A stretch of 26,826 bases of DNA, from positions 1-26,826 of the IMG/VR virus record IMGVR_UViG_3300047356_001015, one strand, 5' to 3'. The DNA comes from a virus. A model generated the notes under the pieces. That model did no database searches. It was given only the letters and a program-made list of their open reading frames with translations, and was not told the origin of the DNA. The translations under genes were made by a program, and so were the position numbers. Position 1 is the stretch's first letter. Each line of letters begins with the position of its first letter. This document shows positions 2,160-18,011 of the stretch, one piece after another.

Positions 2160-2747
2160 ATGTTTGAAAAAATCGCAAATTTTGAAAAAGAGCTAAGTGA
2201 ATTTACTAATTCACCGTATGTTGTTACTACAGATTGCTGTACACATGCCATTGAATTATGTTTGAGATTAGACACTATTACAAAATGTAAATTTAGTGCG
2301 TACACTTACCTTAGTGTCCCAATGACAATGAAAAAGTTAAACATAGACTACGAACTAATAGAAGAATCATGGAGTGGCGAATACAAATTTCATAATACTA
2401 GAATATGGGATAGTGCTAGATGCCTACAGCCAAACATGTATCGTAAAGGACAACTACAGTGTGTTAGCTTTGGCTACAGCAAACCTGTTGACATTGGTCG
2501 AGGAGGTGCAATATTTTTAGATTGTTTCGAAAGTTATAAAAAATTATTAGCAATGCGTTATGACGGTAGAGACTTATCGATATCACCTTGGATAAATCAA
2601 AAAGAATTTGAATTGGGATTTCATTATAAAATGAATCCGGAAGAGTGTATTAGAGGAAGTAAGGCTCTTGCTTCTTACAAACTAAAAAATAATTTTGATA
2701 TAAAACAAGTTAGCTATCCGGACTGTAGGGAGTTAAAAATAAAATGA
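2160..2747 (+). CDS. Compact DegT/DnrJ/EryC1/StrS-type PLP aminotransferase
   Basis: A 195-aa protein with the signatures of sugar aminotransferases of the DegT/StrS family, at about half the usual 370-400 aa. FEKELSEF at 8-15 and VTTDCCTHAIEL at 22-33 match the family's opening and its SGTxAL phosphate-binding turn, here changed to CCTHAI. IWDSA places Asp84 as the pyridine-nitrogen partner. SFGYSKPVDIGRGGA at 103-117 matches the SFxxxKxxxxGEGG loop, with Lys108 as the predicted PLP lysine. Family members transfer an amino group from Glu or Gln to keto-sugars or keto-inositols. Both the segment between the phosphate turn and Lys108 and the C-terminal half are shortened. The ATG at 2160 has AGGAA five bases upstream, and the stop overlaps the next start as ATGA. 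It may be an active minimal enzyme or a binding relic. Confidence 0.7.
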   Translation: MFEKIANFEKELSEFTNSPYVVTTDCCTHAIELCLRLDTITKCKFSAYTYLSVPMTMKKLNIDYELIEESWSGEYKFHNTRIWDSARCLQPNMYRKGQLQCVSFGYSKPVDIGRGGAIFLDCFESYKKLLAMRYDGRDLSISPWINQKEFELGFHYKMNPEECIRGSKALASYKLKNNFDIKQVSYPDCRELKIK

Positions 2748-3433
2748 AAATTTTATGTGTCGGTGACAGTTGGACGTACGGTCACGGAGTTAACAAAGAT
2801 CAAGCATGGCCTGCAATTTTACAAAAAAAGTACGGTGTTAAAGTAAAAAATGTAGGCAAGCCTGGCGTAGGTAATATGGCTATTGCAGATAGAGCAATAG
2901 ACGAATTAAAACAACAAAACTACAATTTAGTAATAGCCGGATGGTCAGGTGTAACACGTTATGTAGTGAACGAAGAAATGATTGATTTTTCCTATAGTAA
3001 AGATGTAAAAGTTAGAGACAAGTTTTTTAAAAATAAATCAATTTCTCACATAGAAGATGATTTTAACGATTGCCGCAATAAATTAAAAAACAAATGCAAA
3101 AATATTAAATTTATCGAATTTAGTGTCTTTGGTGACTTTCAACATTTATATTACGACACGTTTACAAAAAAATCCTATCTTGATTTACTTGCAGAAGCAC
3201 AAGGTTGTAACTTTAAATACAATATTCCGTTTTTTGAATTTGATTACTTATCAGATATTAATTTAAAAAATACAACTAGATTTGCAAAAAGATACTTTCC
3301 AAAAAACTGGGCTAGAGCTATAGTAGAAAGAGAAGATATTAGGCCGAGTGAATACTTTTTAGATTGCGGACATCCTAATGCTAAGGGACACGAATTATGG
3401 GCATCGTACCTAGGAGAATATATTTTTGATTAA
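2744..3433 (+). CDS. SGNH/GDSL-type hydrolase
   Basis: A 229-aa protein with SGNH family landmarks. Block I is CVGDSWTYGHG with nucleophile Ser9. Block II is NVGKPGVGNMA with Gly41-43 and Asn44. Block V is DCGHPNAKGH near the C-terminus, giving Asp207-x-x-His210. The usual GxND of block III is replaced by AGWSGVTR, like WTEINR in the hydrolase at 1-292, so the two share a subtype. Members hydrolyse or transfer acyl and other ester groups on sugars, lipids or small metabolites. There is no signal peptide, so it should act in the host cytoplasm. It starts within the stop of the aminotransferase gene (ATGA) and its own stop overlaps the amidinotransferase start by 8 bases, so co-translation is likely. 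The substrate is unknown; a role in tailoring the same product as its neighbours is inferred. Confidence 0.75.
   Translation: MKILCVGDSWTYGHGVNKDQAWPAILQKKYGVKVKNVGKPGVGNMAIADRAIDELKQQNYNLVIAGWSGVTRYVVNEEMIDFSYSKDVKVRDKFFKNKSISHIEDDFNDCRNKLKNKCKNIKFIEFSVFGDFQHLYYDTFTKKSYLDLLAEAQGCNFKYNIPFFEFDYLSDINLKNTTRFAKRYFPKNWARAIVEREDIRPSEYFLDCGHPNAKGHELWASYLGEYIFD
3412..3416 (+). promoter_or_regulatory. Ribosome binding site AGGAG supporting a TTG start
   Basis: AGGAG lies nine bases before the TTG at 3426, inside the 3' end of the SGNH gene. No in-frame ATG or GTG exists that would keep the conserved N-terminal NEWDxLKEVIVG of the amidinotransferase, so this site supports TTG as the start codon. Confidence 0.6.
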
Positions 3434-4298
3434 TACTGTAAATGAATGGGACTGTTTAAAGGAAGTAATTGTTGGTGATGCAATTTATGCAAATAGACCA
3501 ACAGGCTGTCATTTTGAAGAACCTGGTCCATACCCAAATCATGTTATTGCAGAAGCAACATTAGATTTAAATAGGTTTGTTAGTACCCTTGAAAGTGAAG
3601 GTGTAATAGTACATAGACCAAAAGTACATAACTTTCAAGTTAATAATGGAATGTACAATTATTGTCCAAGAGATAGATTATTAATCATCGGCGACACAGT
3701 TGTTGATTGCAATATGCAATACGAATGTAGAGAACAAGAGCGTAATTATATAGACTTTGTTCTAAAAGATGCAAAGAATGTTATACACACACCACGTAAC
3801 AACATTATTAAGTTTGATGCAGCTAACATTAGCAGATTAGGCAATACGTTATTATACTTAGAAAGTGTTAGTGGTACTAGACAAGGAGCAGATTGGCTAC
3901 AACAACAGTTTCCTAATCATACTGTAGAAGTAACACAAACCTACGGAGGCGTACATATTGATAGCACCTTTAGTCCTGTTGCAGACGGGCTTGTTGTAGT
4001 TAATAAAGATCGTGTTACAAAGAAATCATTACCTCTCTGTTTTAAAGACTGGGAAGTTATTTGGTTAGGTGACAAAGATCTAACACAGAAAAGTTTTACA
4101 GGAGAAGCATTTGCAAGTAATTATATTTTGTTAAACTTCTTTATGATTCGTCCAGACTTGGCAGTTATTGATGACTGTCCTAAACTAGAGCAAGCACTGA
4201 GAGCAAATGGAGTACTAAGTTACACAGTACCATTTGCTCATTCAAGAACACTCGGGGGCGGACATCATTGCACCACACTAGATTTACACAGGGGATAG
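3426..4298 (+). CDS. Amidinotransferase, AGAT/StrB family
   Basis: A 290-aa protein of the arginine:glycine / inosamine-phosphate amidinotransferase group. NEWDCLKEVIVGD sits at residues 6-18. CPRDRLLIIGD at 80-90 matches the AGAT-type PRD segment, and FDAAN at 130-134 carries the triad Asp131. GGVHIDSTF at 174-182 provides His177 and Asp179, and LGGGHHCTT at 276-284 gives the nucleophile Cys282. The family moves the amidino group of arginine to an amine acceptor through a Cys-amidino intermediate; the PRD segment favours a transferase over an arginine deiminase. It is shorter than human AGAT. The start is TTG, supported by AGGAG nine bases upstream, and overlaps the SGNH stop. Its place two genes after a StrS-type aminotransferase recalls the amine-then-guanidine order of streptomycin biosynthesis. 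The acceptor is not known. Confidence 0.85.
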   Translation: MINTVNEWDCLKEVIVGDAIYANRPTGCHFEEPGPYPNHVIAEATLDLNRFVSTLESEGVIVHRPKVHNFQVNNGMYNYCPRDRLLIIGDTVVDCNMQYECREQERNYIDFVLKDAKNVIHTPRNNIIKFDAANISRLGNTLLYLESVSGTRQGADWLQQQFPNHTVEVTQTYGGVHIDSTFSPVADGLVVVNKDRVTKKSLPLCFKDWEVIWLGDKDLTQKSFTGEAFASNYILLNFFMIRPDLAVIDDCPKLEQALRANGVLSYTVPFAHSRTLGGGHHCTTLDLHRG

Positions 4299-4300
4299 AT

Positions 4301-4795
4301 ATGTATAAATTAGGACATATAAATTTAAACATAGACATTAATGAAATTAAGTCATTTGAATACACTAGACAACCATTAAATTTACAAGAAGAAGATAAAT
4401 GGGAAACTGGCGTATACAACGGCATGACATTCGGCGGGGAATTATATAGCGGAAAAAACTATATACCAGAATGGACTAAACAAATAAGCAAAGATCTAAA
4501 TATGAAAGATTGTGGGTATTCATTTTATAAAATGAAAACAAATAATATTATTCCTACTCATGTTGATCACTACTCAACATATACTAAAATATTCAAGAAG
4601 AATATTAAAGATGTAGTAAGAGCAATTGTGTTTTTAGAAAACTGGAAATCTGGACATTATTTTGAAGTAGACGGATTTCCGGTATTTAATTGGAAAGCTG
4701 GCGACTATTGTATGTGGACACATAGCGTACCGCATTTTGCTGCAAATATTGGCATTGAAGATAGATATACTTTACAAATTACTGGCGTTAATTAA
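4301..4795 (+). CDS. 2-oxoglutarate/Fe(II)-dependent oxygenase (aspartyl/prolyl hydroxylase-like)
   Basis: A 164-aa protein with the double-stranded beta-helix signature. HVD gives metal ligands His87 and Asp89; about 55 residues later HFAANIG supplies the distal His145, and Arg155 in DRYTLQITG fits the 2-oxoglutarate carboxylate binder. WKAGDYCMW just before the distal motif is also typical. The closest-looking group is the Asp/Asn beta-hydroxylase type. Enzymes of this fold hydroxylate or otherwise oxidise proteins, sugars or small molecules and are common in marine myoviruses. I chose the ATG at 4301, two bases after the previous stop and six after AGGGGA, over an in-frame TTG at 4268 buried in the upstream gene. 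The stop overlaps the next start as TAATG. The substrate may be the amidinated product or a protein; neither can be read from sequence. Confidence 0.75.
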   Translation: MYKLGHINLNIDINEIKSFEYTRQPLNLQEEDKWETGVYNGMTFGGELYSGKNYIPEWTKQISKDLNMKDCGYSFYKMKTNNIIPTHVDHYSTYTKIFKKNIKDVVRAIVFLENWKSGHYFEVDGFPVFNWKAGDYCMWTHSVPHFAANIGIEDRYTLQITGVN

Positions 4796-5982
4796 TGGCC
4801 CATTTAAAAATTTATCATAATAATAATATTTACTTTACAAGTGGTAATAGAAACCAAAGAACTAAACTTAAATCTATTAGGCCGCAATGGGAAGATAGGT
4901 TATTAAATAAACTTAAAAAAGTTATCAAACCTACTAAGCAAGAGATTGTTATAATTTTATTTGCAGGATGTACACAAACAAACGAAAAAGATATCATTAA
5001 ATTTATAAGAAAAAATTCTATTGAAAAAATATATTTCTTTATGGAAGATGTGCTTAGGTTATATTCAAATACAAATAATTTTAATATGCTAGAAACTTAT
5101 CCAATAGAAACTATTCCCGACGAAGTACGTAGCTACGAATTAGATATTATTTCAAGAATTTTATCTAAAACAAAATGTAAATATAAAATTTATCATTGTG
5201 AAAAAGACTCATTTATTATAGCAAAAAACTATAACTTAAAAATTGATTACTTTGACTATTATTTTACAAGCATTGCATCAAATATGTATACTAAAGATGA
5301 TTTTGTAAACGATAATAATAGATATATCTTTGACAAAAAAATATCTTGTTTTAACCTTCGTTTTGAATACCATCGTTACATAATAGGTTTGTTAATAAAA
5401 GACTTTGATACTGTGTTAAGTTTAAACAACTTATGTACTACTAAACAATTACTTAATAATAAAACATTGCCTCTTGCAAACTTTAGTCCGCAAACTGTAG
5501 AGAAAATATTAACAAGTCATTACGAATTAGAAAATACTCCAATCTTATGGGACGCTAAAAATAGTGATGTAGTAGATATAGAAAGTGATAAGCAAAGAAA
5601 TACTATTCAAGGTGTTTCAAAAGCATTTGTTGATGTTGTAACTGAAACTAGATATGCATCTAATATGATAAATCTAACAGAAAAAACAATCAAACCTATT
5701 GTAGCACATAGGCCGTTTATTATGGTAGGTCCAGTAGGTACAATTTCACATTTACAAAGTTTAGGATTTCAAACATTTAATAAATGGTGGGACGAAAGTT
5801 ATGATAATGAAACTAACCACAATAAAAGATTAGAAATGATATATAAAATCATAAATGATATTAATAATATACCAATCGACAATCTAAAAATAATGTTACA
5901 AGAAATGCGTAGTGTACTAGAACACAATTACAAGACCTTAAGAAAACAATTTAACAAGAATAAAGAATATCTAATTACGTAA
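4795..5982 (+). CDS. Protein of unknown function, possible GT-B-like C-terminal half
   Basis: A 395-aa, Lys/Asn/Ile-rich soluble protein with no signal peptide and no membrane segment that I can see. I do not recognise the N-terminal half, which has alternating strands and helices (VIILFAGCTQ at about 52-61). The C-terminal third contains NLTEKTIKPIVAHRPFIMVG, then GTISHLQSLGFQTF, then WWDESYD and a final helical stretch. The order TEK, K-P, RPFI, G, LGF, DESYD resembles the nucleotide-sugar binding half of some GT-B glycosyltransferases and similar conserved proteins of marine viruses; this is a resemblance only. It begins in a TAATG overlap with the oxygenase gene, so it is the last member of the plus-strand operon. 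Its last codons lie inside a 16-base palindrome shared with the convergent radical SAM gene. Confidence 0.55.
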   Translation: MAHLKIYHNNNIYFTSGNRNQRTKLKSIRPQWEDRLLNKLKKVIKPTKQEIVIILFAGCTQTNEKDIIKFIRKNSIEKIYFFMEDVLRLYSNTNNFNMLETYPIETIPDEVRSYELDIISRILSKTKCKYKIYHCEKDSFIIAKNYNLKIDYFDYYFTSIASNMYTKDDFVNDNNRYIFDKKISCFNLRFEYHRYIIGLLIKDFDTVLSLNNLCTTKQLLNNKTLPLANFSPQTVEKILTSHYELENTPILWDAKNSDVVDIESDKQRNTIQGVSKAFVDVVTETRYASNMINLTEKTIKPIVAHRPFIMVGPVGTISHLQSLGFQTFNKWWDESYDNETNHNKRLEMIYKIINDINNIPIDNLKIMLQEMRSVLEHNYKTLRKQFNKNKEYLIT

Positions 5983-5986
5983 TTAG
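5971..5986. repeat. Perfect 16-bp palindrome joining two convergent genes
   Basis: CTAATTACGTAATTAG is identical on both strands and contains the stop codons of both convergent genes (5982 plus, 5975 minus). Each therefore ends in Leu-Ile-Thr-stop read from the same palindrome. It has no loop and no T-tract, so it is not an obvious intrinsic terminator. Confidence 0.85.
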
Positions 5987-7360
5987 TTTACAATCTTGAT
6001 AGAATTGTTCCATTTCAGGAAAAGTTTTTAAAAAATTTGTAGAACGTCTACGATCATGCTCATCAACAAATATAGCAAAATCTTTTCTAAATATATCAAG
6101 TTGTTGTTGTGTTAAGTTTTCGTTATCAAACACTTCTAGTAATCTACTAAACTTGTCACCTTCCCATTTATGAAACCCGTTTTTTACATTTACGTTTTCT
6201 AAGTTACTACGAATGAATTCTAACTGTTTAGCAATGTTTTTTGTCCATTCTTTTGGGGCAATTTTTATAGTTTGATGATCGGGCCATCTTAAATAAGGAA
6301 CATCTAGTATAATCGGTGTTGGCTTTCCTAGTCCTCCAAATTCAGTTTTAATAGATAGTATATCCTGTAAAAATTTATCAAAAGAAAACATGCTTAATAA
6401 ATTATAGGTACTCATACAAGTAAAAGTACAGTTAGGCACCTCAGTTAATATACGTCTAATAGTTGCAATCCATTTATTATAATTAAGTCCGTATCTAATA
6501 TATTCAGCTTGTGTACCATGTGCTTCGGCACTTGTAAATATTTTAAAATTTTTAACTTTGCCTTCATTACAGATTATTTTAATTTTTTCAATAAATTTAT
6601 CTATTACAGCATCAGGTAAGCACATATTACTATTGATAGAAAATTCTAAATTTGGCAAGGGATTTTCTATCAAATAATCAAGAATTTTAAAAGTATCTTT
6701 TGATAATAATGGTTCGCCACCAGTAATTCTAAACGTGTGTAATTTAGACGATACACTAGGCCACCATTTCCAAAAAGCTTCAACATAAGGATTATGTTCT
6801 CTATTTGGTATAGGCATAGTTCCTTGCTTTTTAATCCAATCTAAATCATTAAAGTTACTACTAGTTTTATATGCACCATGCTGTTGTATTTCTTCTACCC
6901 ATTTACTACTAACCTGAGGACTACAATAACTACATTTTAAATTACACACATGACTAAAACTAACTTCTAAGTAACTAGGATCAACATCGTCATCCCAAGG
7001 CTTAGATATAATTTCATCAATAAAATTTCTAGCCCATGGTTCTGCAGATTTATATACTCTATCGCTAAGAGCTTCAGGGTTACAATCTTCTACTCGCCAG
7101 CAATAGTCACATTCACTAGGACGTTTTCCTTCTAACATTTCTTTACGCTGAAGTTTTTTAAATTTAGTATTATGTAATGCACTTGGATTATCAGCAATTT
7201 CATCTAAAGGAATTTTATGCGGAACGGGATGATGACAACTGTGTGTTTGTCCACTATGTAAATGTAAAGTTACCTGCTTCCATTTTGCTGTACAAAAACT
7301 CGGACTTACTTCATTTAAAACATTATCTCGGAAATGATATAGATCATCAGATGTTTTCAT
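5975..7360 (-). CDS. Twitch-domain-containing radical SAM protein
   Basis: A 461-aa protein. The canonical radical SAM motif VCNLKCSYC gives Cys139, Cys143 and Cys146 for the 4Fe-4S cluster that cleaves SAM, and ITGGEPLL at 212-219 is the SAM-binding GGEP. Upstream, a separate region holds FCTAKWKQ (Cys23), SCHHP (Cys42), ECDYCW (Cys84, Cys87) and Cys93, with NPSALHNT and RKEMLEGKRP between. This order matches the twitch-type auxiliary cluster region of radical SAM proteins common in marine phages, here N-terminal to the SAM domain. Known radical SAM/twitch enzymes modify peptides or sugars; the substrate here is unknown. The start lies one base past the stop of the GT-A-like gene, so it ends the early operon. 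It converges on the plus-strand operon with an 8-base overlap at the stops. Confidence 0.85.
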   Translation of the reverse strand: MKTSDDLYHFRDNVLNEVSPSFCTAKWKQVTLHLHSGQTHSCHHPVPHKIPLDEIADNPSALHNTKFKKLQRKEMLEGKRPSECDYCWRVEDCNPEALSDRVYKSAEPWARNFIDEIISKPWDDDVDPSYLEVSFSHVCNLKCSYCSPQVSSKWVEEIQQHGAYKTSSNFNDLDWIKKQGTMPIPNREHNPYVEAFWKWWPSVSSKLHTFRITGGEPLLSKDTFKILDYLIENPLPNLEFSINSNMCLPDAVIDKFIEKIKIICNEGKVKNFKIFTSAEAHGTQAEYIRYGLNYNKWIATIRRILTEVPNCTFTCMSTYNLLSMFSFDKFLQDILSIKTEFGGLGKPTPIILDVPYLRWPDHQTIKIAPKEWTKNIAKQLEFIRSNLENVNVKNGFHKWEGDKFSRLLEVFDNENLTQQQLDIFRKDFAIFVDEHDRRRSTNFLKTFPEMEQFYQDCKLIT

Positions 7361-7361
7361 T

Positions 7362-8252
7362 TTATAATTTTATATTTCTTGCAGGCTGAGTGTAAACTTT
7401 CTTAAAAAATTTACTCTGTTGCTCATCTAAAGGCATTTGTCCTATTGGTAGTTTAAGTTCGTTTACTAACGAAGCTCCTAGAACTTCTATAGCTTCTAAT
7501 AAGTCATCACCTGTTATTTGTGTTTTTTGTTTTTCATTCCACAGGTTATTTAAATATGTGAAGTCTCTTACCTGTATGTGATCCCAATCTGTACACATTG
7601 TTTTAAAAACACCTTCTCTAGCGCCGTATATAGTCCATAATCCGTTTTTTATATCTGCACCAACCATAGTCCAAACTAACAGTCTGTTATAATTTTGCCA
7701 CCATAACTTTTCTAAATCTTTTATTACCGATCCTCTGTTTAGCGACATTTTTACACCTTCGCGGAATCCTGCTCTCCAAGCCTGTTGAGGAGTTGAACTA
7801 ATAATACTAGTCGAAAAATTTTCATTTAGTTGAAGATAATTATCAAAATAACAAAATTCTATACTTGTGTCATCGGAGCCGTCTGTATTTTCATGTGTTT
7901 TCATATTTTTTACAAAATTTCTTGTCCACATTTTTATACTACCGTTACCGTACATTAGTCCATTTACATCTATCTTGCCAGCCCAGCTAAATTGATAATC
8001 TTTTGTTGCATTTAGTTTATTCAAATCAAGATCTACTTCTAAAAACTTAGGATCAATAATTGTATCACCATCAATAGTAATAAAATTTTCAGTTTCGCTT
8101 AGATCAGCACATGCTTTGTGTGCAGCATCTGAACCTTCTACTCCATGTACACGTTTAGCCCATGGGACTTTGGCTAGTAAGTCTGCATAATTTTCTTCAG
8201 CGTTAGGTTCATCATAACTTAAAAATATTATATCTTGATCAATTACTTTCAT
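7362..8252 (-). CDS. GT-A-like putative glycosyltransferase (paralogue of 285-947)
   Basis: A 296-aa protein. DIIFLSYDEPNAEENY at 7-22, AKRVHGVEG at 32-40 and FITIDGDT at 57-64 form the same N-terminal layout as the protein at 285-947, with Asp61-Gly62-Asp63 as the DxD-like motif. YGNGSIKMW and AWRAGFREGVKM again align with the paralogue. An extra C-terminal tail of about 70 residues is absent from the shorter copy. The GT-A-like reading suggests metal-dependent transfer of a sugar from a nucleotide donor; donor and acceptor are unknown. The ATG at 8252 lies 14 bases inside the preceding gene, and the stop is one base from the radical SAM start, so all three are likely translated from one mRNA. 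Confidence 0.6.
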   Translation of the reverse strand: MKVIDQDIIFLSYDEPNAEENYADLLAKVPWAKRVHGVEGSDAAHKACADLSETENFITIDGDTIIDPKFLEVDLDLNKLNATKDYQFSWAGKIDVNGLMYGNGSIKMWTRNFVKNMKTHENTDGSDDTSIEFCYFDNYLQLNENFSTSIISSTPQQAWRAGFREGVKMSLNRGSVIKDLEKLWWQNYNRLLVWTMVGADIKNGLWTIYGAREGVFKTMCTDWDHIQVRDFTYLNNLWNEKQKTQITGDDLLEAIEVLGASLVNELKLPIGQMPLDEQQSKFFKKVYTQPARNIKL

Positions 8253-8784
8253 GTTTATATCCTATTGTATGTACATGCGGTATATGACTACTATTAGTTA
8301 AAACCGATACTGTTTTATGCGACGAGCAATTACTAATTTTTATTTCTTTTTGTGTTGCAAATTCTTTTAAATTAATACTAAACTTATCTAATAATATAAA
8401 TCTGTTAGTGCTATCTACAATATAATATTCTTTTAGATAATCTTCGCCTATTGACAATGCTGTACAATTTACATCATCTATAAAATTATTTACGACCCAT
8501 CCGTCTTTTTCTTGTACAATCTGGATTCCTGATTCTAATATATCTGCTTTATTTACAAAATTTGTATGATGTACAGATTCTTCTTCATCGATATTGATAG
8601 GAACAATGTGATAACTTCCTTTTGTTTTAACATTTTCAATTACTTTGTAATCAAACATTGCTTTTTCGCCATTATTAAATTCATTAAAAGTTTTTTTATC
8701 AATTTTGATATACTTTTCAACTGTTGCTTTAATATTAGAGACTGAAGTTATGTTGCCTTCTTCGTCATAGTGTAAGTAAAACAT
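8239..8784 (-). CDS. Protein of unknown function, 181 aa
   Basis: I do not recognise this protein. It begins MFYLHYDEEGNITSVSN, has mixed alpha/beta character, many acidic and Asn residues, and a His-rich C-terminal end (SSHIPHVHTIGYKH). There is no signal peptide or membrane segment. The ATG at 8784 is preferred over an upstream GTG at 8805 because AGGAG lies eight bases before it, and because it forms a TAATG junction with the preceding glycosyltransferase gene. Its stop lies 14 bases inside the next gene. The position inside a glycosyltransferase operon suggests an accessory role, or a virion protein that is modified by the enzymes, but nothing in the sequence proves either. Confidence 0.7.
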   Translation of the reverse strand: MFYLHYDEEGNITSVSNIKATVEKYIKIDKKTFNEFNNGEKAMFDYKVIENVKTKGSYHIVPINIDEEESVHHTNFVNKADILESGIQIVQEKDGWVVNNFIDDVNCTALSIGEDYLKEYYIVDSTNRFILLDKFSINLKEFATQKEIKISNCSSHKTVSVLTNSSHIPHVHTIGYKHESN

Positions 8785-9611
8785 TATATTTTCTCCTCTA
8801 GCCACTTAACTATATCATTTGACAAAAAACTATTTTCAACGTAATGCAATACACCCGATTGTTTATATCCATTAATAATGATATCATTATTTCCAAAATC
8901 AACAGTTAGAAGTTCTGTCCATTTAGATGGTGGATTATATAAATTTTGTAAATGAGGTTTCATATGTGTAAACGCTAATGTACTATTATCTAAACAATAT
9001 CCTTGCATATCTAATATTTTTAATGCTATTGCTGCACTAACATCAACACTACACCAGGCTTGAAAATCGTTAGGTGCATATTGTTTGTAAAATTCTCTCC
9101 AATGTTTCATTACTATATCAAGCAATACGAAAAATCCGTGTGTACTTTCTGATTTTGAAAATTGATATAGTCCTGTATATACATTTGGCAAATCGTTTGA
9201 ATCAAATGTTTTCCTATAATATCGAGAAGTAATTAGTTCGTTTCGATAAGTCTTAACATTTTTTGTAAATAATAAAGGAGGTGATTTTGTAAAATCTTGC
9301 CAAACTTTATTAATATTATCTAACACCAACATATCTACATCCATAACAACTGTATTTTCATAAGGTGTTATGTGGTAAACTTTCCAACGATTTTCAATTT
9401 TCCATTGTTTATTATTAGCACCATCGCCCCAAGGTATAGGTATAATTTTATCAAATACCTTTTGATACTCAGGAAGTACTTCGTCGTTAGTAATTAAACT
9501 TATATTGGTTCTAGGACTGTTAGCAAGAACACTTAACGCTAGTGCATACGCTTGTCTAATATAATCTGTTGTATTATTATTTTGTGCAACAAGACAAATG
9601 CCGTTACTCAT
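8784..9611 (-). CDS. GT-A-like glycosyltransferase, GT8-type look
   Basis: A 275-aa protein with N-terminal GICLVAQNNNTTDYIRQA, a segment SLITNDE (38-44), and NTVVMDVDMLV where Asp91-Val92-Asp93 is the DxD expected for metal and nucleotide-sugar binding. The strand-then-DxD-then-hydrophobic pattern is that of GT-A enzymes such as the GT8 group. WCSVDVSAAIAL near residue 195 could form the second acidic site. It is a diverged tandem copy of the next gene upstream (9604-10455): both open with NNNTxDYxxQA and carry D-x-D in the same place. The ATG at 9611 is chosen over an in-frame TTG at 9629 because AAGGAG lies seven bases before it and it sits in an ATGAGTAA overlap with the upstream stop. 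The sugar and acceptor are unknown. Confidence 0.7.
   Translation of the reverse strand: MSNGICLVAQNNNTTDYIRQAYALALSVLANSPRTNISLITNDEVLPEYQKVFDKIIPIPWGDGANNKQWKIENRWKVYHITPYENTVVMDVDMLVLDNINKVWQDFTKSPPLLFTKNVKTYRNELITSRYYRKTFDSNDLPNVYTGLYQFSKSESTHGFFVLLDIVMKHWREFYKQYAPNDFQAWCSVDVSAAIALKILDMQGYCLDNSTLAFTHMKPHLQNLYNPPSKWTELLTVDFGNNDIIINGYKQSGVLHYVENSFLSNDIVKWLEEKI
8793..8797 (-). promoter_or_regulatory. Ribosome binding site AGGAG deciding the start at 8784
   Basis: AGGAG on the minus strand lies eight bases before the ATG at 8784. A GTG start at 8805 would place this site inside the coding sequence, so the shorter 181-aa product is favoured. Confidence 0.7.
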
Positions 9612-10455
9612 TAGCAAACTCCTTATCAATAAACTTGTCTAAACTAAACTTGTTCATAATATGAGTAGTAGCATCATCTAACTTAACAGCAAGATAATCA
9701 TGATCTCTTTGTGCTAATAATTTTATACTACTATTGTTTGCATCTACTAGTACATCCTTATCAGTAGATACCCACATATCAGTAGGAATATCTAGAGGCC
9801 AGTTACTATCTTCTACAAACCCTCGCATTGTGTGTAATGCAATACTAAAAGCAAAATCATTTCTAAATTTTGTTTCGATGATATTATAAACTAATCTATA
9901 ATAATTATAATTTTCTTTAATATGTTTTACTAAATCAAATACTGTTTTTGACGTATAACTCTTAGTAAAGTAAATTATTGTCGCCCAATACATTGGTACA
10001 GAATTATCACTAATTCTATCAAAACTTTTATAAGATTTACTAGTATTTACTAATTGATAATTCTTAGCAATCATGAAATCTTCTGACATGTTAAAACAAG
10101 TTAGTAATTTATCATTACTAATCAATAAATCAGTATCAAGAACTAATGTTTGTTCAAATACTGTAAGATCAAATGCACTATCTCTTGCACTATTTTTCCA
10201 ATCTAACTTGCCGTGATTTCCATGTATTCCATCATAAAATGTTTTGTTAGATGGAATAGGAGCAGGGCTATATGTAACTACATCAATATATTTTTTATAA
10301 AACGGAAATTTTTTAATTAGGTGGTCTTTGTCATCAGTTATTAGTTGTACTGATAACCCTAGATATTTTTTTATACGTTTTGCACAATATATTGCTTGCT
10401 TTACATAATCAATTGTATTGTTATTAAAAGCAAATAAAACTACGCCTTTTTTCAT
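9604..10455 (-). CDS. GT-A-like glycosyltransferase, tandem paralogue of 8784-9611
   Basis: A 283-aa protein opening MKKGVVLFAFNNNTIDYVKQA, followed by VQLITDDKD at 36-44 and TLVLDTDLLI, giving Asp107-Thr108-Asp109 as the DxD motif. The match to the neighbour at 8784-9611 in both the NNNTxDY opening and the DxD strand indicates an old tandem duplication; elsewhere they differ clearly, so the two may use different donors or acceptors. The insert of about 15 residues between the opening fold and the DxD (GIHGNHGKLDW) is absent from the neighbour. The ATG at 10455 overlaps the previous stop as ATGA, and the stop overlaps the next ATG by 8 bases. GT-A fold transfer is inferred from motif and order, not proven. 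Confidence 0.7.
   Translation of the reverse strand: MKKGVVLFAFNNNTIDYVKQAIYCAKRIKKYLGLSVQLITDDKDHLIKKFPFYKKYIDVVTYSPAPIPSNKTFYDGIHGNHGKLDWKNSARDSAFDLTVFEQTLVLDTDLLISNDKLLTCFNMSEDFMIAKNYQLVNTSKSYKSFDRISDNSVPMYWATIIYFTKSYTSKTVFDLVKHIKENYNYYRLVYNIIETKFRNDFAFSIALHTMRGFVEDSNWPLDIPTDMWVSTDKDVLVDANNSSIKLLAQRDHDYLAVKLDDATTHIMNKFSLDKFIDKEFANE
9619..9624 (-). promoter_or_regulatory. Ribosome binding site AAGGAG deciding the start at 9611
   Basis: AAGGAG, which encodes Lys-Glu at the end of the upstream glycosyltransferase, lies seven bases before the ATG at 9611. It makes that ATG the likely start rather than the in-frame TTG at 9629. Confidence 0.7.
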
Positions 10456-10799
10456 AGACTAGTTAATCCTTCAACTGATCTGTTGTCTTTAATTTTTTTA
10501 TAATCATATAAGTATTTTCTAGATGCAAAAGTATAGACACCTAATAACTGTCTTGTAAATTCTTTTAGATTATTGACATCAAAAGGAATACTATTGTCAT
10601 CTAACAAAACTGTTTCTCCTTGATCTAATTCTAGCAAACTTTGGCAGAAACTAATTAAATCCATAGTAACAGTTATTTTATGCCCATTAGTATAATGGAC
10701 AAGATTATCTTGATACTGCTTTAAAAAAATACGTTTTTGGTTGTTTTGTGTTTCTAAAAAGTTAGAAAATTCTAGAGCTTTTTCCAGTCGTTCATCCAT
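10452..10799 (-). CDS. Conserved-looking small phage protein, 115 aa
   Basis: A small soluble protein beginning MDERLEKALEFSNFLETQNNQKR, mostly helical at both ends with a short beta segment (YTNGHKITVTMDLISF) in the middle. It resembles a conserved hypothetical protein found in many marine T4-like phages; I know of no assigned function. It is the first gene behind a strong sigma70-like promoter, with AAGGAG five bases before the ATG, and its stop overlaps the next start as ATGA. It should therefore be made early and in quantity with the glycosyltransferases that follow. The acidic/basic helical make-up could suit a small adaptor or regulator, but there is no recognisable DNA-binding motif. 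Confidence 0.75.
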   Translation of the reverse strand: MDERLEKALEFSNFLETQNNQKRIFLKQYQDNLVHYTNGHKITVTMDLISFCQSLLELDQGETVLLDDNSIPFDVNNLKEFTRQLLGVYTFASRKYLYDYKKIKDNRSVEGLTSL

Positions 10800-10810
10800 G
10801 GGATCTCCTT

Positions 10811-10833
10811 GTATATACTGTTATAGTATATAC
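10811..10833. repeat. Inverted repeat GTATATAC-N7-GTATATAC over the early promoter
   Basis: Two copies of the self-complementary octamer GTATATAC are separated by seven bases. One covers the -10 hexamer and the other the expected start of transcription. The placement is that of an operator for a dimeric repressor, although alternating TA steps could also arise by chance in AT-rich DNA. Confidence 0.45.
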
Positions 10834-10853
10834 TAAAACTAAGTGTTTGTCAA
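10825..10853 (-). promoter_or_regulatory. Sigma70-type promoter TTGACA-N17-TATACT
   Basis: On the minus strand a perfect TTGACA (10848-10853) is followed by exactly 17 bases and TATACT (10825-10830). The first ATG (10799) follows about 25 bases later with AAGGAG before it. This is a near-consensus host sigma70 promoter, as used by early genes of T4-like phages. It sits in the 61-base gap after the 303-aa structural gene and would drive the 10799 to 5975 operon independently of the late tail genes. Confidence 0.85.
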
Positions 10854-10860
10854 GAGTTAA

Positions 10861-11772
10861 TTAGAAAGTATTTGAACTGCCAGTAGCTACACTAGGTGAT
10901 GTAACTTCAACGTTTGAGCCTGTAGCACGTCTAACAGTAATAGCACTTGTTAGAGTGCCTTGGACGGGTTCATCAACAGGTGCGCCAGTTCCTGTTTGGT
11001 CGCCTGCATCATCGTCTCTGAAAAATACACGTACTCTTATTCCGTTAGTGATATATCTAATATAAATTTGGTAGTCGTTTTCTGAGTACGGATTAGTACC
11101 GCCATCTTGGAAAATTTTTACCTCAGTGCCATTTGTGTTCAAATCATACATACCTGTGTTGGTAATTGTACCTTGGTTACCGCCACCGTCTGCATATGCA
11201 CTTGTATAGTTTATACTTACGTTTTTAGCATCGTTTACTAGGCTTTTCCAATCTAGTGTTTTAGCTTCAGAACCAGTATAAGATAAAGACGAATTAATAC
11301 TAACCACTCCGCCGGCATTCCAAAATGCTTTGAATGCGTTTGCACTTCCCCAGGTTAACTGTACATCATGTATTTGTGTACCATTCCATCCACCTGATTT
11401 ATTTTTTGTTCTTGCTGTACTAAGTGTACTTTGTGCCGTTGCCATTGTAAATCTATTTGATGTTACTGTAGATAATGCCGTTTCAAATTCGTTATGTATT
11501 GCTGCTGTAATGCCTGTGTCTGTATCAACTGTTGTTAGTGCTACGGCACTATTAGTTTGGTGTGCGCTTGCTTTGCGAATATCACCTCTTAAATTGTTCC
11601 ATTGTGATGCTGTAATTGTTGAACCTACAGATACCGACGGTGCTGAAATACCAACATTATATCCCGATGAACCGTTACCGCTTCCTGTTGGGGTTCCCAT
11701 TACTGTGTTTATACCGCTTCTTAGTGTGGTATAATGTGTTTCATTAATACTTGAGCCTACTGATACAGCCAT
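10861..11772 (-). CDS. Phage virion/tail-associated structural protein
   Basis: A 303-aa Gly/Ser/Thr/Asn-rich protein with the composition of phage fibre proteins. The N-terminus carries a repeated unit: VSVGSSINETHYTTLRSGI at 3-21 and VSVGSTITASQWNNLRGDI at 47-65, followed by AHQT. This paired unit is typical of tail-region proteins in marine T4-like phages. The rest is predicted beta-rich (TLDWKSLVNDAKNVSINYTS). There are no enzyme motifs and no signal peptide. It has its own late-type octamer at 11800-11807, 27 bases upstream, placed over the stop of the fibre gene before it. It is the last gene of the late tail block; its stop lies only seven bases from the -35 box of the early promoter. 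A role in the fibre or baseplate is inferred from context. Confidence 0.65.
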   Translation of the reverse strand: MAVSVGSSINETHYTTLRSGINTVMGTPTGSGNGSSGYNVGISAPSVSVGSTITASQWNNLRGDIRKASAHQTNSAVALTTVDTDTGITAAIHNEFETALSTVTSNRFTMATAQSTLSTARTKNKSGGWNGTQIHDVQLTWGSANAFKAFWNAGGVVSINSSLSYTGSEAKTLDWKSLVNDAKNVSINYTSAYADGGGNQGTITNTGMYDLNTNGTEVKIFQDGGTNPYSENDYQIYIRYITNGIRVRVFFRDDDAGDQTGTGAPVDEPVQGTLTSAITVRRATGSNVEVTSPSVATGSSNTF

Positions 11773-11799
11773 TCTTCATCCTTTTTTAAACTACGTACT

Positions 11800-11807
11800 T
11801 ATTTATA
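11800..11807 (-). promoter_or_regulatory. T4-type late promoter TATAAATA overlapping a stop codon
   Basis: This is an exact late octamer on the minus strand, 27 bases before the ATG at 11772. It overlaps the last codons and TAA of the fibre gene 11803-13311. Confidence 0.75.
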
Positions 11808-13311
11808 CTTTTAAGACACACTCGATTAATTTTTCTGACTCGTCCTGGCTTGATTCTAGAGCAATTCCTACTAATGCTGTTGATGCTATAGTAGTACAAA
11901 CACCATCTTCCCATGCATAAACAGGCTGTCCTTTTGTTACAGTTCCTTTTACTCTTACTGGAACACGCCCTTTAAGACCAATTGCTTGACCGTCACAATC
12001 GCTATTCATTAAATATGCAGGCTCTGCAGATATAACTCCAATTGCCATGCAACTTGCTTTACATGCTGTAGCTTCTGCTTCGCCGCCGACACACATTGCT
12101 GTTCCTGTTGGATAATCTTGATCAGTTACATAAACTTCTGCTAAGTCAGCATATCTTGCACTTGTTGCTGTGCCTTGAAATAATACTGCATTTAAGTTTC
12201 CTGATCCGTCTCTTACAGCTATAGTATTGCCGGTGCCTGTTCCGCTTGAGTCTACTGATCCTACTCTAGTATTTCCACCTACAATAAGAGCACTTGCTTT
12301 TTCTGAAATTCCATAATAATTTCCGGCATATACATCATCAAATGGTGCTGCTGTAGAACCTATGTCTATACTTCTATAAACAGTTGGACCTGTACTTTGT
12401 ATACCAGGTAAAATATTTCCTGGACGGATATCTACAACATTTACGGTTGCTCCGCCGGATTCTTTTACTCTAAATTTAATTTCGTCACCTTGTGAATTTT
12501 GTATAACACCTTCGTTATCATTCTCGATAAACAATTTTAAATCTAATCCTGCACCAATTGCAATACCTGCATCAGTTTGGAAGTTTGTTATCTCTGTGAA
12601 TACTGTTGGCGCACCTGGGTTAGCTGTAACATAATTACTTGCATCAACTCCGTTAAGTTTTAATGCGTTAGATGCTGTACCGTGGAATTGATGATCTGTG
12701 CTTGTTACTCCAGCTGTTGCACTTTGCGTATTTTTAAGTGTAACACCCTGGCGTACTATATCAAATCCTGAAATTGCGTTTTGTGCATCAGTTGAGTCGA
12801 TAGTAAATTCTACTGGGCTTATTAAGAATTGTACATCGTCGTTTACTGTTGCAGCAATTACACTTCTACTAATTGATCCAGTATCAAGTACTGTTTTACT
12901 TTGCATTTGTGTAATGCCTGTACCTGCATCTTGTGGACCTACGAGTACAAAATCTGTGCCGTTGTATGCATATAACTGTTGGTTAGTTGTATCCCACCAA
13001 AAATCACCAGTTGATAAACCTGCTGGTGCTGTAGCACTAATTTCTGCGCCGCCTGTTGTGCGCCATTTGCCACCGTCATAAAATTTTAATTTGCTATTTG
13101 CTGTATCAAACCATATTTGGCCTTGTATAGCCCTTGGTGGTTGATTTGCTCCTGCAAAGTTTTCTAAAAGAAATACAAAGTTTTCGTTTTGTATCTCACC
13201 GTACCCTGCATAATTCTTACCAACTAACTTAATGTCAGTTGTTTGATCAATAGTACCGTCTTGTACTATTGTAAGCTGGGTAGTATCATATTTGTTTATT
13301 GTGTACGCCAT
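11803..13311 (-). CDS. Tail-fibre-like protein 1, Cys-rich C-terminal domain
   Basis: A 502-aa protein. Residues 1-125 form the domain shared with the next two upstream genes: DGTIDQTT, GYGEIQNENFVFLLENFA, AIQGQIWFDT, LKFYDGGKW and TGDFWWDT. The middle is beta-rich (RVGSVDSSGTGTGNTIAV). The C-terminal 120 residues begin ARYADLAEVY and continue with GTAMCVGG, AIGVISAEPAYLMNSD, LKGRVPVRVKG and KGQPVYAWEDG. This order is seen at the ends of many marine phage fibre proteins and resembles the peptidase G2/chaperone-like endings of some phage tail proteins; I see no certain catalytic set. Six cysteines cluster here (407 to 498), unusual for a fibre. A GATAAATA late octamer lies 21 bases upstream of the ATG. 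It is likely part of the host-recognition apparatus. Confidence 0.75.
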   Translation of the reverse strand: MAYTINKYDTTQLTIVQDGTIDQTTDIKLVGKNYAGYGEIQNENFVFLLENFAGANQPPRAIQGQIWFDTANSKLKFYDGGKWRTTGGAEISATAPAGLSTGDFWWDTTNQQLYAYNGTDFVLVGPQDAGTGITQMQSKTVLDTGSISRSVIAATVNDDVQFLISPVEFTIDSTDAQNAISGFDIVRQGVTLKNTQSATAGVTSTDHQFHGTASNALKLNGVDASNYVTANPGAPTVFTEITNFQTDAGIAIGAGLDLKLFIENDNEGVIQNSQGDEIKFRVKESGGATVNVVDIRPGNILPGIQSTGPTVYRSIDIGSTAAPFDDVYAGNYYGISEKASALIVGGNTRVGSVDSSGTGTGNTIAVRDGSGNLNAVLFQGTATSARYADLAEVYVTDQDYPTGTAMCVGGEAEATACKASCMAIGVISAEPAYLMNSDCDGQAIGLKGRVPVRVKGTVTKGQPVYAWEDGVCTTIASTALVGIALESSQDESEKLIECVLKV

Positions 13312-13346: not shown

Positions 13347-15269
13347 TTACGGATATGCTATTGTGGAATTCCAAGTCCACACTCCTGCTGTTATTGTGAA
13401 TGTCATTGTAAATCTCGATGGATCTAGTGCCACCGTACCTGTAGCTGGATTAATGAATGCTATATCTTGTATAACTGATTCATTTTGTGTTCCTGCTGAA
13501 TCAACTGAAATAGTTGATTTTTGTAAAACCCCAGTAGCATTTGGCGAAGTAGATACAGTAATTTGAATTCCTGAAATTGTACTGGCCGCATATGATGTAC
13601 AATGTATTTTAGCAACTTTTCCATTTGCTGCTGCTGAAGCAGGATATACTGATTCTATAACAGCTTTTACATCGTTTATTGGTCCGTCACCTACGCCGGG
13701 TACATTTGGTGATACAAATCCTGTAATATCTAATGCTAAAGACATTGGTTCAAATGCAATTTGTGTATCTACATAACCTTTATTTGCTACGTCAGTTGTA
13801 CCCGTTGGTGCAGCCACTCCAGTAATCTTTTGTGTGTTTACTGTTATATCGCCTGTAGAGCTAATATTTAATGCTCCTGGCGAACTAATACTTCCAACTG
13901 CTGCATTACCACTTACAGTTACAGATGTTAGTGTACCAACATTTTGTAAAGAAGAATTTACAACTCCGCTACCTAATGTTGTCGCTGTAAGTACATTTGC
14001 ATTTGAAATTCTAAAAGACTTTCCTAATTCTAAGTCTATATTTTGATTGGATGTAAAGTTGCCTGTTGAGTTTTTCCAGATAAAGTCTTTACTACCATTT
14101 AAGCTGTTAATAACAAATCCGCCGCCGTCGATTCCTGCATCGTCTAATTCTGTTGAATCATCAGTAATTCCTAATTGTATTTGCGGATCTTGTACTCTTA
14201 ACTCTGCTGAATCAATAATTGTGCTTGCGCCGCCGATTGCAATGTTTCCTTCAATCGTTAAGTCGCCTGTAACTCTTGCATCTCCAGTTACATCTAATGC
14301 AACTGTTGGTGTGTCTTGAAAAATACCAAAACGTCCATTTAGTGTATCAAATGTTAACCCATCAATTTGATTCGAACCAACTTTTCTTCTGATTGCAAAT
14401 GGTTGATTTTGATTTAAAATATCAATAACTGTTTTTGTATCTGTTTCTGTAGTTTTAAATTGTCCGTATGCTGTATCACCGTATCCAACTTTTACTCCAG
14501 ATTCTCCTTTAACAAATAATCCACCGTCCATTGTTTGATCAACAATAACATTACTACTATCTCTTTCGTTATTTCTAACAAAGTCAGTACTAGCAACTGA
14601 TACACCTTGAGCATCTACTAAGTTTTCTGCTGTTGATGCAATTCCATTCCAACGGAAAGCAATGTTATCTCCATTATCTGCTGTATAAAGTGGATTAAAC
14701 CCTACCTTGATTACTCTTCCTGCTGCATATGGTAATAGTACATCTTCAGTTCTCGGTGTAAATTCTTTTGCACTATGTATACCAATTAAGTTTCCTTGTA
14801 TATATTGTGCTAGGACTGCTCTAGTTTGTCCTGATGTGTCAATCATTGTCACAGCTTCTAACAAAGTTTTTCCTTGTGTAGCTGTGTAATTAGGTCCTAC
14901 AGCAACAACATCGGTTCCATCATAAAAATATAATTTATTTTGTTCATTATCAATCCATAAATCACCTGCAACCATGTTAGGTTGTGAAGAACTTATAATT
15001 GGGCCGCCTGCAATTCTAAATGTTGTTCCGTTGTAAATTTTTAAACGCTGATCGGAAGTATCGTACCAAAGTTGTCCTGGTATTGCATTTGAAGGAGCAC
15101 TAGTACTTGCAAAACTTTCTGTTAATTTAATAAAGTTTTCATTAATATATTCGCCAAAGCCTTTATAATTTCTTCCTACAAGGGTTAGATCTGAAGAGGT
15201 AGTATCAATTACTCCATCTTGTAATTCTACTAGGAGTGAGCCGTCTGTTTTGTTTAGTTTATAACTCAT
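13347..15269 (-). CDS. Tail-fibre-like protein 2
   Basis: A 640-aa protein sharing the N-terminal domain of its two neighbours (LQDGVIDTTS, GFGEYINENFIKLTESFA, AIPGQLWYDT, LKIYNGTTF, AGDLWIDN). The middle resembles repetitive fibre shafts: VTGDLTIEGNIAIGGAS, then VTVSGNAAVGSIS and ISSTGDITVNTQKITGVAAPT. The motif DVANKGYVDTQI (about 490-501) is the ANKxYVD unit common in phage tail fibres. The C-terminal 120 residues form a beta-rich domain unlike those of the neighbours, likely the exposed tip. The ATG overlaps the previous stop as ATGA with AGGAG seven bases upstream, so translation is coupled to fibre gene 3. Cytoplasmic synthesis and assembly into the tail are inferred; there are no enzyme motifs. 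Confidence 0.75.
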   Translation of the reverse strand: MSYKLNKTDGSLLVELQDGVIDTTSSDLTLVGRNYKGFGEYINENFIKLTESFASTSAPSNAIPGQLWYDTSDQRLKIYNGTTFRIAGGPIISSSQPNMVAGDLWIDNEQNKLYFYDGTDVVAVGPNYTATQGKTLLEAVTMIDTSGQTRAVLAQYIQGNLIGIHSAKEFTPRTEDVLLPYAAGRVIKVGFNPLYTADNGDNIAFRWNGIASTAENLVDAQGVSVASTDFVRNNERDSSNVIVDQTMDGGLFVKGESGVKVGYGDTAYGQFKTTETDTKTVIDILNQNQPFAIRRKVGSNQIDGLTFDTLNGRFGIFQDTPTVALDVTGDARVTGDLTIEGNIAIGGASTIIDSAELRVQDPQIQLGITDDSTELDDAGIDGGGFVINSLNGSKDFIWKNSTGNFTSNQNIDLELGKSFRISNANVLTATTLGSGVVNSSLQNVGTLTSVTVSGNAAVGSISSPGALNISSTGDITVNTQKITGVAAPTGTTDVANKGYVDTQIAFEPMSLALDITGFVSPNVPGVGDGPINDVKAVIESVYPASAAANGKVAKIHCTSYAASTISGIQITVSTSPNATGVLQKSTISVDSAGTQNESVIQDIAFINPATGTVALDPSRFTMTFTITAGVWTWNSTIAYP

Positions 15270-18003: not shown

Positions 18004-18011
18004 TATTTATC
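18004..18011 (-). promoter_or_regulatory. Late-type promoter octamer GATAAATA overlapping a stop codon
   Basis: The octamer lies 22 bases before the ATG at 17981 and includes the CGA-TAA end of the giant gene, the same arrangement as at 11800-11807. Confidence 0.65.

Follow-up and report, generated by a model that had tools for sequence, protein, structure and literature searches.

In the sections of PMC6884629 covered here, the 7-deazaguanine genes of phages are FolE, QueD, QueE, QueC and DpdA. Where the literature examined mentions a phage-borne amidinotransferase, it does so in an annotation line, and the covered sections of two reports, on phage cytosine hypermodification (PMC12783734) and on large aquatic phages (PMC12619734), contain no mention of one. 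In the covered sections of PMC11360552, the gene reported from ocean viruses is GAMT rather than AGAT; a creatine/guanidinoacetate route was considered here for this reason and was set aside rather than rejected. In the literature searched, which was partly surveyed, we found no viral guanidino-sugar pathway and nothing on the function of the genes described below.

The locus lies in a 26.8-kb window (the whole stretch of viral DNA analysed, 26,826 nucleotides). Five plus-strand genes at 2160–5982 had been predicted to overlap or nearly touch, and we confirmed all of their reading frames and junctions. A mini-aminotransferase gene (AT; 2160–2747, 195 aa, ATG start) shares an ATGA overlap with an SGNH/GDSL hydrolase or acyltransferase gene (2744–3433, 229 aa, ATG), which in turn overlaps the amidinotransferase gene (AGAT; 3426–4298, 290 aa, TTG start) by 8 bases. 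The TTG start gives the N-terminus MINTVNEW and is identical in the L010 homologue. After a 2-base gap follows a 2OG-Fe(II) oxygenase-like gene (4301–4795, 164 aa, ATG), joined through a TAATG junction to the fifth gene, a predicted GT-B-fold glycosyltransferase (4795–5982, 395 aa). The flanking genes are on the minus strand: a UDP-glucose/GDP-mannose dehydrogenase-like gene (UGDH; 966–2096) diverges from the operon, and a radical SAM gene (5975–7360; PF04055 over cut-off) converges on it. Further along the same strand lie three tail-fibre/structural genes (11803–13311, 13347–15269 and 15266–17362), which PHROGs describes as tail fibre, virion structural and short tail fibre and among which there is a Pfam match to the PF07484 collar family.

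AT matches PF01041 (DegT_DnrJ_EryC1) with 39.5 bits against a Pfam cut-off of 19.8, and its structure model (pLDDT 92) aligns with WlaRG (5U23) over 184 residues at a VIA Z of 19.3. It has the same fold, PLP lysine and aspartate as WlaRG, ArnB and GDP-perosamine synthase of the DegT/DnrJ/EryC1/StrS family, and most of the solved structures closest to it belong to NDP-sugar aminotransferases. Both the PLP lysine (Lys108) and the pyridine-binding aspartate (Asp84) are present in 95/95 aligned rows, for which frames were limited to 180–260 aa (1/95 excluded). The original prediction of a PLP aminotransferase was right about family and lysine, but the protein is only about half the normal length: its 195 residues compare with approximately 360 for a full two-domain DegT chain, so that it falls short of full length, and the TM-score by target length is ∼0.4. 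Since the 184 residues align within residues 30–316 of WlaRG, AT has nothing that corresponds to about 100 internal residues of WlaRG or to its C-terminal end. Family-wide decay of an aminotransferase is ruled out, as 94/95 relatives are short frames (189–249 aa) that keep the lysine and the aspartate; the remaining one is the AT–FolE frame of L166 (see below). That this putative 195-residue DegT enzyme is missing about half of the usual structure speaks against the cassette reading proposed below. The half-size family comprises at least 589 confirmed viral stretches, and in a cultured Flavobacterium phage its member belongs to a glycan cluster, with no AGAT nearby, that contains a mannosyltransferase, a 'pilin glycosylation protein' and an NDP-sugar epimerase. 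If the cassette reading holds, the half-size AT would be an unusually small PLP enzyme of the DegT fold and would test the minimum fold that is needed.

The best solved match to AGAT is StrB1 (PDB 1BWD; E = 1.5e-41), to which residues 2–105 and 130–289 align; human AGAT matches with E = 3.7e-16. No Pfam family matches the AGAT protein, and a search for ADI (PF02274) gave no match across the record. His177, Asp179, His281 and Cys282 are found in 104/104 aligned rows (3/106 frames excluded by length). Asp131 is found in 90/104; the other 14, all of a long AGAT type, have His or Asn. The window AGAT has the full putative triad of Asp131, His177 and Cys282. The numbering of Cys282 and Lys108 is as originally given, and conservation of the two residues in homologues, set beforehand as a test, holds in every row of both alignments. 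In a comparison with L098, where gene order is identical, the window shows 83% identity in UGDH, 67% in AT and 45% in AGAT, whereas the corresponding values for L017, a FolE-linked type, are 62%, 47% and 78%. Judging from these identities and from a tree (with long branches at L013, L014 and L064), the window AGAT looks to have been exchanged in place, and this apparent exchange between settings suggests that the same reaction is used in both.

UGDH exceeds the Pfam cut-offs for PF03721 and PF00984 and matches phrog_9148 in PHROGs (E = 6.6e-95), with 150 bits for NCBIfam NDP-sugDHase being under the cut-off of 189.8. Its Cys250 and Lys191, which we take to be the catalytic cysteine and lysine, are found in 59/59 aligned rows, 12/70 frames outside 350–480 aa having been excluded. 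The SGNH gene is over cut-off for PF00657 (GDSL lipase; 34.1 bits, cut-off 23.6) and PF13472. For the oxygenase call, the Pfam score stays under cut-off (PF05118, Asp_Arg_Hydrox; 17.9 against 22.6 bits), but the iron triad HxD...H, formed by His98, Asp100 and His156 (counted from 4268), is kept in 96/96 rows (0/95 frames excluded by length). The fifth gene, formerly 'unknown', has no Pfam or PHROGs match. Its model (pLDDT 79) has T4 BGT (1C3J) as its best match, with a VIA Z of 13.5 over 281 residues, and scores 11.8 with an alpha1,3-fucosyltransferase; on this model, the gene is predicted to encode a GT-B-fold glycosyltransferase.

Neighbourhoods were counted among the best 80 of 438 hits of a viral AGAT scan and the best 80 of at least 589 confirmed hits of a viral AT scan; both were ranked by likeness to the window, and the frequencies therefore describe near relatives. 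Fourteen contig-repeating loci (L001, L002, L003, L005–L011, L094, L095, L100 and L103) were dropped before counting. Near-copies on separate contigs were kept in unclustered counts; among them, L012, L015 and L016 are near-copies of the window itself. Cluster counts (51 AGAT, 42 AT and 52 pooled AT) refer to clustering at 85%, with 2/53 AGAT clusters excluded from the 'main' family and L166 omitted from the clustered AT set. Near AGAT, the 2OG gene occurs in 51/51 clusters (in 38/51 on the same strand and within 150 bases), GT-B in 45/51 and UGDH in 39/51; radical SAM occurs in 19/51, AT in only 11/51 and SGNH in 3/51. AGAT is present in 7/7 contigs found via the 2OG gene, near-copies of the window excluded, and L271 carries all six families in a different gene order. 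GalE, UGDH or GT4 lies within the locus in 39/42 AT clusters, and the predicted surroundings of glycosyltransferase and sugar genes are indeed seen around the module. Phages repeatedly carry AT and AGAT next to each other, with more than one gene order, and the outcome set beforehand as refuting the original prediction, a lack of co-occurrence elsewhere, did not arise. A fixed five-gene unit is not found; judging from the gene neighbourhoods, the viral module is looser, and the window shows one of its arrangements. Among cellular AGAT loci, module-type neighbours were found in 1/72, on a short contig, this absence being weak at many loci because little flank is available.

Relatives of the genes are under purifying selection, with median dN/dS values of 0.115 for AT (40 pairs), 0.086 for AGAT (40 pairs), 0.091 for 2OG (21 pairs) and 0.08 for the fifth gene (8 pairs). 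Because of this selection and the recurrence of its parts in many contigs, the gene set is more than chance, and a chance pile-up of open reading frames is ruled out by catalytic-residue conservation, selection and co-occurrence together.

From the enzyme families, their conserved residues, co-occurrence and selection, as seen in sequences and models, we infer substrate, step order and acceptor of a virus-encoded cassette that would make and transfer a guanidino-bearing nucleotide sugar, with the phage's own tail fibres as the most likely acceptor; we give this reading a probability of about 0.5. UGDH would first oxidise an NDP-hexose to the uronate, which the 2OG-Fe(II) oxygenase would hydroxylate or provide with a ketone in place of a hydroxyl. 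Using PLP on Lys108, AT would transfer an amine from glutamate onto the keto sugar, and AGAT would move the amidino group of L-arginine via Cys282 onto this amine, leaving ornithine. The GT-B glycosyltransferase would transfer the sugar to the acceptor, perhaps the tail fibres and possibly DNA, and the SGNH enzyme would adjust acylation. Alternatively, AGAT and 2OG could act on an amino acid or a lipid. A link to fibres is seen in 22 loci, where the start of a fibre-like frame precedes the end of AGAT by 8 bases (18 loci) or 26 bases (4 loci). This AGAT-coupled family (A7) shares a segment with the window fibre at 13347–15269 (E = 1.4e-8); among its 20 members, two unnamed PHROGs families match one member each and the PDB none. 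The shared segment, together with a repeat motif that we take to be fibre-like, makes A7 a putative fibre family.

The sugar may instead be placed on phage DNA, on 7-deazaguanine or another base, which we consider possible but rather unlikely. Here, GT4, GalE and AT, encoded between a TGT-like gene and FolE, would make and attach the sugar, and AGAT would add the guanidino group. AT-anchored loci (n = 76) argue for this, as they frequently contain FolE (67), a TGT/DpdA-like gene (48), QueD (42) and QueE (26). FolE follows AT within 150 bases in 51/76, often accompanied by other 7-deazaguanine genes, a GalE-like epimerase and a glycosyltransferase, and in L166 AT, without its last residues, and FolE form one open reading frame. 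L166 is a single contig, so that a deletion or an assembly error is possible, and the link is already contained in the FolE counts; adjacency and fusion thus add slightly to the argument, and by them the connection of AT with deazaguanine genes is no weaker than that with AGAT. Further points in favour are L018 and L020, in which the deazaguanine and sugar clusters are merged, G002, a near-identical relative of the window with a TGT-like gene, GT4, FolE and QueE (no QueD in its 47 kb), and the T4 DNA glucosyltransferases, which are the closest folds to the modelled fifth gene. FolE, QueD and QueE are all present in G025, which is of the window type; none is among the family matches in the window. 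Against a DNA acceptor, FolE is present in 3/62 and QueD in 0/62 of those AGAT loci that lack AT, and the sole AT of G002 lies outside the FolE cluster, ∼35 kb from this deazaguanine-type cluster. The module is also present in the cyanophage S-SCSM2R, in which no QueD was found, and G022 has AGAT, UGDH, 2OG and GT-B, with no TGT-like gene, FolE or QueD found. The TGT-like gene is so assigned by motifs that we take to be TGT-like; with Pfam TGT (PF01702) in 0/7, no PDB match and an hhalign probability of 0.3% with 9g DpdA, we do not regard it as a proven DpdA.

It is unlikely that the true unit comprises UGDH, 2OG, AGAT and GT-B, with the window AT serving another product and the host supplying the amine for AGAT. 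AT is the rare partner in AGAT clusters (11/51, against 51 for 2OG, 45 for GT-B and 39 for UGDH), which implies that in most phages the amine is sourced elsewhere or AT is distant. Moreover, AGAT is absent nearby in 56/76 AT loci, and FolE is present in every one of the 56. Direct adjacency speaks for a connection between AT and AGAT: it is seen in 7/42 AT clusters of the AT-anchored sample, for which a crude estimate, treating clusters as independent and putting 3 to 5 AGAT in every 300 genes, gives a chance of 2e-5 to 4e-4. It is seen in 11/52 pooled AT clusters, with two AGAT types, a figure biased upward because AT- and AGAT-anchored loci are mixed. The 7 adjacent clusters represent 8 loci, and in 3 of these (L124, L132 and L141) the AGAT is of the long type, in which His or Asn replaces Asp131. 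Both genes also occur in 8/10 records of at least 200 kb. In the AGAT records of this size (n = 6), AT lies ∼100 kb away beside FolE in 4 and is missing in 2.

More speculatively, large phages may combine the synthesis of a 7-deazaguanine base with that of an amino/guanidino sugar, for which the half-size AT and one to four AGATs would be used, and join the two on DNA into a charged, glycosylated, hypermodified base. The window virus would then represent a branch whose AT is not part of the deazaguanine operon but of a sugar module next to the tail-fibre genes. The charge of such a base would be positive.

Some phages carry genes for remodelling the sugars on the surface of their host, and together with the sugar-enzyme context these lend some support to a product that alters the surface glycan of the host or occurs as a free metabolite in the course of infection. 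We regard this as improbable, given that AGAT is coupled to a fibre-like gene and that the module is positioned beside the window fibre genes. A streptomycin-like guanidino-cyclitol pathway is very improbable and is ruled out as the leading idea, since, even with StrB1 as the closest solved structure to AGAT and StrS within the DegT family, neither PF01408 (GFO/IDH/MocA) nor PF01658 (inositol-1-phosphate synthase) was found in the related virus records (0/16 each), which are partly fragments and whose inositol could come from the host. The streptomycin-type logic of the original prediction thus finds no support beyond the enzyme family; of its shared amine-then-amidino pathway, adjacency, catalytic residues and sugar-gene context survive, and the analogy and the fixed unit do not.

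If the reading of a guanidino-sugar cassette is true, phages equip their virions or DNA with a sugar bearing a strongly basic group that resembles arginine. Such a group could influence how acidic cell surfaces are bound, or protect DNA against nucleases. The occurrence of AT in both a deazaguanine operon and a sugar module offers a concrete entry to phage DNA and virion hypermodification.

Compared with known systems, AGAT has the FDAAN, H(I/V)DST and RTLGGG(F/H)HC segments in common with StrB1, the Streptomyces inosamine-phosphate amidinotransferase, but is shorter (290 against 348 aa) and lies among NDP-sugar genes, whereas cyclitol genes were not found in the 16 related virus records. The fifth gene shares the GT-B fold with T4 beta-glucosyltransferase and the GT10 fucosyltransferases at only 8–11% identity. 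FolE, QueD and QueE of the 9g-type 7-deazaguanine DNA-modification clusters recur in relatives that carry the mini-AT, but these add GT4, GalE and the mini-AT itself, and QueC is over cut-off in only 1/17 records. Synechococcus phage S-SCSM2R (PQ898602), a complete cyanophage, encodes a 195-aa AT, radical SAM, 2OG and AGAT among glycosyltransferases, with no UGDH match within the 24.6 kb examined, and its AT and AGAT are each 38% identical to those of the window.

The five plus-strand genes at 2160–5982, described in the original prediction as overlapping or almost touching, are borne out by the gene coordinates. In the window, which covers all 26,826 bases of the virus record, this operon is flanked on the minus strand by genes for a UDP-glucose-dehydrogenase-like protein (UGDH; 966–2096) and a radical SAM protein (5975–7360), and lies about 6 kb away from the block of tail-fibre and structural genes. 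The window UGDH has 376 residues, about 30 fewer than most of its viral relatives (about 407). In contig L101, a UGDH-like frame of 710 residues (5794–7923) neighbours a second UGDH piece of 205 residues (4326–4940), as if the gene had been split by an insertion. Two pairs of paralogous proteins on the minus strand of the window (7362–8252 with 285–947, and 8784–9629 with 9604–10455; about 28–30% identical) have no clear family and are possibly glycosyltransferases. The same strand also carries a long frame, 18007–26826, which runs for at least 2,818 codons and is still open at the record end, with FG-GAP segments and weak T7-tail-fibre-like segments.

The first operon gene (2160–2747, plus strand) encodes an aminotransferase (AT) that scores above the DegT/DnrJ/EryC1/StrS cut-off with only 195 residues. 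The solved structures nearest to its predicted model (mean pLDDT 92, with 47 aligned rows as input) are for the most part NDP-sugar aminotransferases, with Foldseek matches to GDP-perosamine synthase and ArnB and a VIA match to WlaRG (Z 19.3, 2.3 Å, 184 residues). The TM-score is about 0.7 by the model's own length versus about 0.4 by target length, and the aligned WlaRG range is 30–316, leaving about 100 residues inside the WlaRG chain, as well as its C-terminal end, unmatched. Small size is common to the family, 94 of 95 relatives being 189–249 residues long, and Asp84 and Lys108 are kept in all 95 rows that these 94 and the window make up.

Family searches assign the second gene (2744–3433, plus) to the SGNH/GDSL proteins. 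The amidinotransferase (AGAT; 3426–4298, plus) has no Pfam match, and its best solved match is StrB1 (1BWD, E 1.5e-41), followed by HsvA, SxtG and human AGAT. His177, Asp179, His281 and Cys282 are conserved in 104 of 104 rows and Asp131 in 90; the other 14 rows are of a long type with His or Asn replacing Asp131. The small 2OG-Fe(II) oxygenase-like protein (2OG; 4301–4795, plus) falls under the Pfam cut-off, and the iron triad is intact in 96 of 96 rows. The fifth gene (4795–5982, plus) is without match in family searches; its predicted model (pLDDT 79) has the fold of GT-B glycosyltransferases, among which T4 beta-glucosyltransferase (BGT; Z 13.5) leads by a small margin (fucosyltransferase, Z 11.8).

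Scanning viral contigs yielded 438 confirmed stretches for AGAT and at least 589 for the mini-AT, and the best 80 of each were retained. The 81 AGAT-anchored loci from the best of the 438 carry 2OG in 79 cases, GT-B in 67, UGDH in 54, AT in 19 and SGNH in 5; after clustering at 85% (51 clusters), the counts are 51, 45, 39, 11 and 3, respectively. With near-copies of the window set aside, a 2OG-anchored scan found seven contigs, each of which has AGAT. One locus, L271, has UGDH, 2OG, AT, AGAT, SGNH and the GT-B gene, in an order different again. Seen from the AT (best 80 of at least 589), AGAT lies within about 8 kb in 20 of 76 loci and directly adjoins in 7 of 42 clusters (85% clustering); three of the eight loci behind these seven clusters have the long AGAT type. 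Whole-record searches of records of at least 200 kb found AT in four of six AGAT records, about 100 kb apart, and AGAT in four of four AT records, two of which have three or four AGAT-like frames. Such multiplicity within one large phage was seen in G032 and G028 (the records of L132 and L120, three or four frames each), and the observation also covers L264 (5696–6853 and 8362–9279). Among 72 bacterial and archaeal loci with AGAT relatives, module neighbours occur, within the flank sequence present, only in L173, a probably viral contig of 4.4 kb from a Bacteroidetes bin.

Shortly downstream of AGAT, some virus contigs encode a BMP/PnrA-type nucleoside-binding protein (L018, within 9108–12641, where the family was tested; L017, 9073–10143; L011, 12961–14031). 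By eye, this stretch of L018 also has reading frames resembling an NMT1-type ABC transporter.

The mini-AT has a second setting, beside FolE. In one frequent arrangement, a TGT-like gene is followed by a GT4-like glycosyltransferase, a GalE-like epimerase, AT, FolE, HIT, QueD and QueE, and 76 AT-anchored loci contain FolE in 67, GT4 in 59, GalE in 50, TGT-like in 48, QueD in 42 and QueE in 26 (FolE and QueD called by Pfam, QueE by an NCBIfam match far under its cut-offs). QueC is above cut-off in 1 of 17 records. FolE starts at most 150 bases past AT in 51 of the 76 loci and is more distant in 15; all nine loci that lack it have the AGAT module. One published account gives FolE, QueD, QueE, QueC and DpdA as the 7-deazaguanine genes of phages (PMC6884629). 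In L166 (8001–9257), AT, without its last residues, and FolE form a single open frame of 419 residues, which may stem from gene fusion, deletion or misassembly on this one contig. A conserved 149-residue protein upstream of AT (L152, 3803–4249, and relatives; 43 of 76 loci) has no Pfam match above cut-off and is QueD-like by eye.

The TGT-like gene has motifs resembling those of TGT and no match to Pfam TGT, the PDB or 9g DpdA. Its family is conserved in large phages (60 reading frames, mostly 490–560 residues, e.g., L131, 3748–5319) and may be a new DpdA type; its relatives in Pseudomonas phage PA5oct bear the annotation 'hypothetical'.

Both clusters are merged in L018 and L020, in the order TGT-like, GT4, GalE, UGDH, 2OG, AT, FolE, AGAT. 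G002, a larger record near-identical to the window, starts with a TGT-like fragment, GT4, FolE and QueE, and its sole AT sits in the AGAT module; in G025, with the gene order of the window, AT is likewise absent from the FolE region. The window gene order recurs in L098 and L101. Against L098, the window is 83% identical in UGDH and 67% in AT, but only 45% in AGAT, whereas against L017, of the FolE-linked type, the values are 62%, 47% and 78%. The window AGAT groups with FolE-linked-type rows in the tree (support 100/100). Judging from the sequences, an AGAT of this type seems to have taken the place of the resident one in situ, and this suggests that one reaction is required in the two settings alike.

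As a whole, the evidence fits a cassette that would oxidise, aminate and guanidinylate a nucleotide sugar and transfer the finished sugar to an acceptor. The virus-encoded route to a guanidino-bearing product suggested in the original prediction is partly supported. Enzyme families, catalytic residues, selection and co-occurrence are observed, and we infer substrate, order and acceptor. A fibre-like frame begins 8 or 26 bases ahead of the AGAT end in 22 loci and, in 16 more, on the AGAT strand, roughly 750 bases downstream (39 pairs examined, near-copies counted). This family obtained no name from PHROGs or the PDB; when seven window proteins were searched with its profile, part of the fibre encoded at 13347–15269 matched (E 1.4e-8). 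In two phage groups, fibre genes are coupled to the AGAT module or lie next to it, and for this reason we favour the tail fibre as the acceptor. DNA is the main rival, owing to the FolE setting of AT and the BGT-like fold of the fifth gene. However, the 252-kb record G022 has the module minus AT, without TGT-like gene, FolE or QueD, and the complete Synechococcus phage S-SCSM2R, in which a search for QueD found none, also carries the module.

S-SCSM2R, whose host is Synechococcus sp. WH7803, encodes a 195-residue AT, a radical SAM protein, 2OG and AGAT amid glycosyltransferases. In Flavobacterium phage immuto, where AGAT was not found, the mini-AT has a mannosyltransferase on one side and a 'pilin glycosylation protein' on the other, followed by an NDP-sugar epimerase. 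Campylobacter CP220-type phages have a distant AGAT, and in CC_R7 a QueD gene lies about 5 kb from it; the part of PMC6884629 that cites dADG in Campylobacter phages does not name them. In the data examined, these known enzyme families, with a half-size aminotransferase family among them, occur in this combination almost exclusively in viruses.
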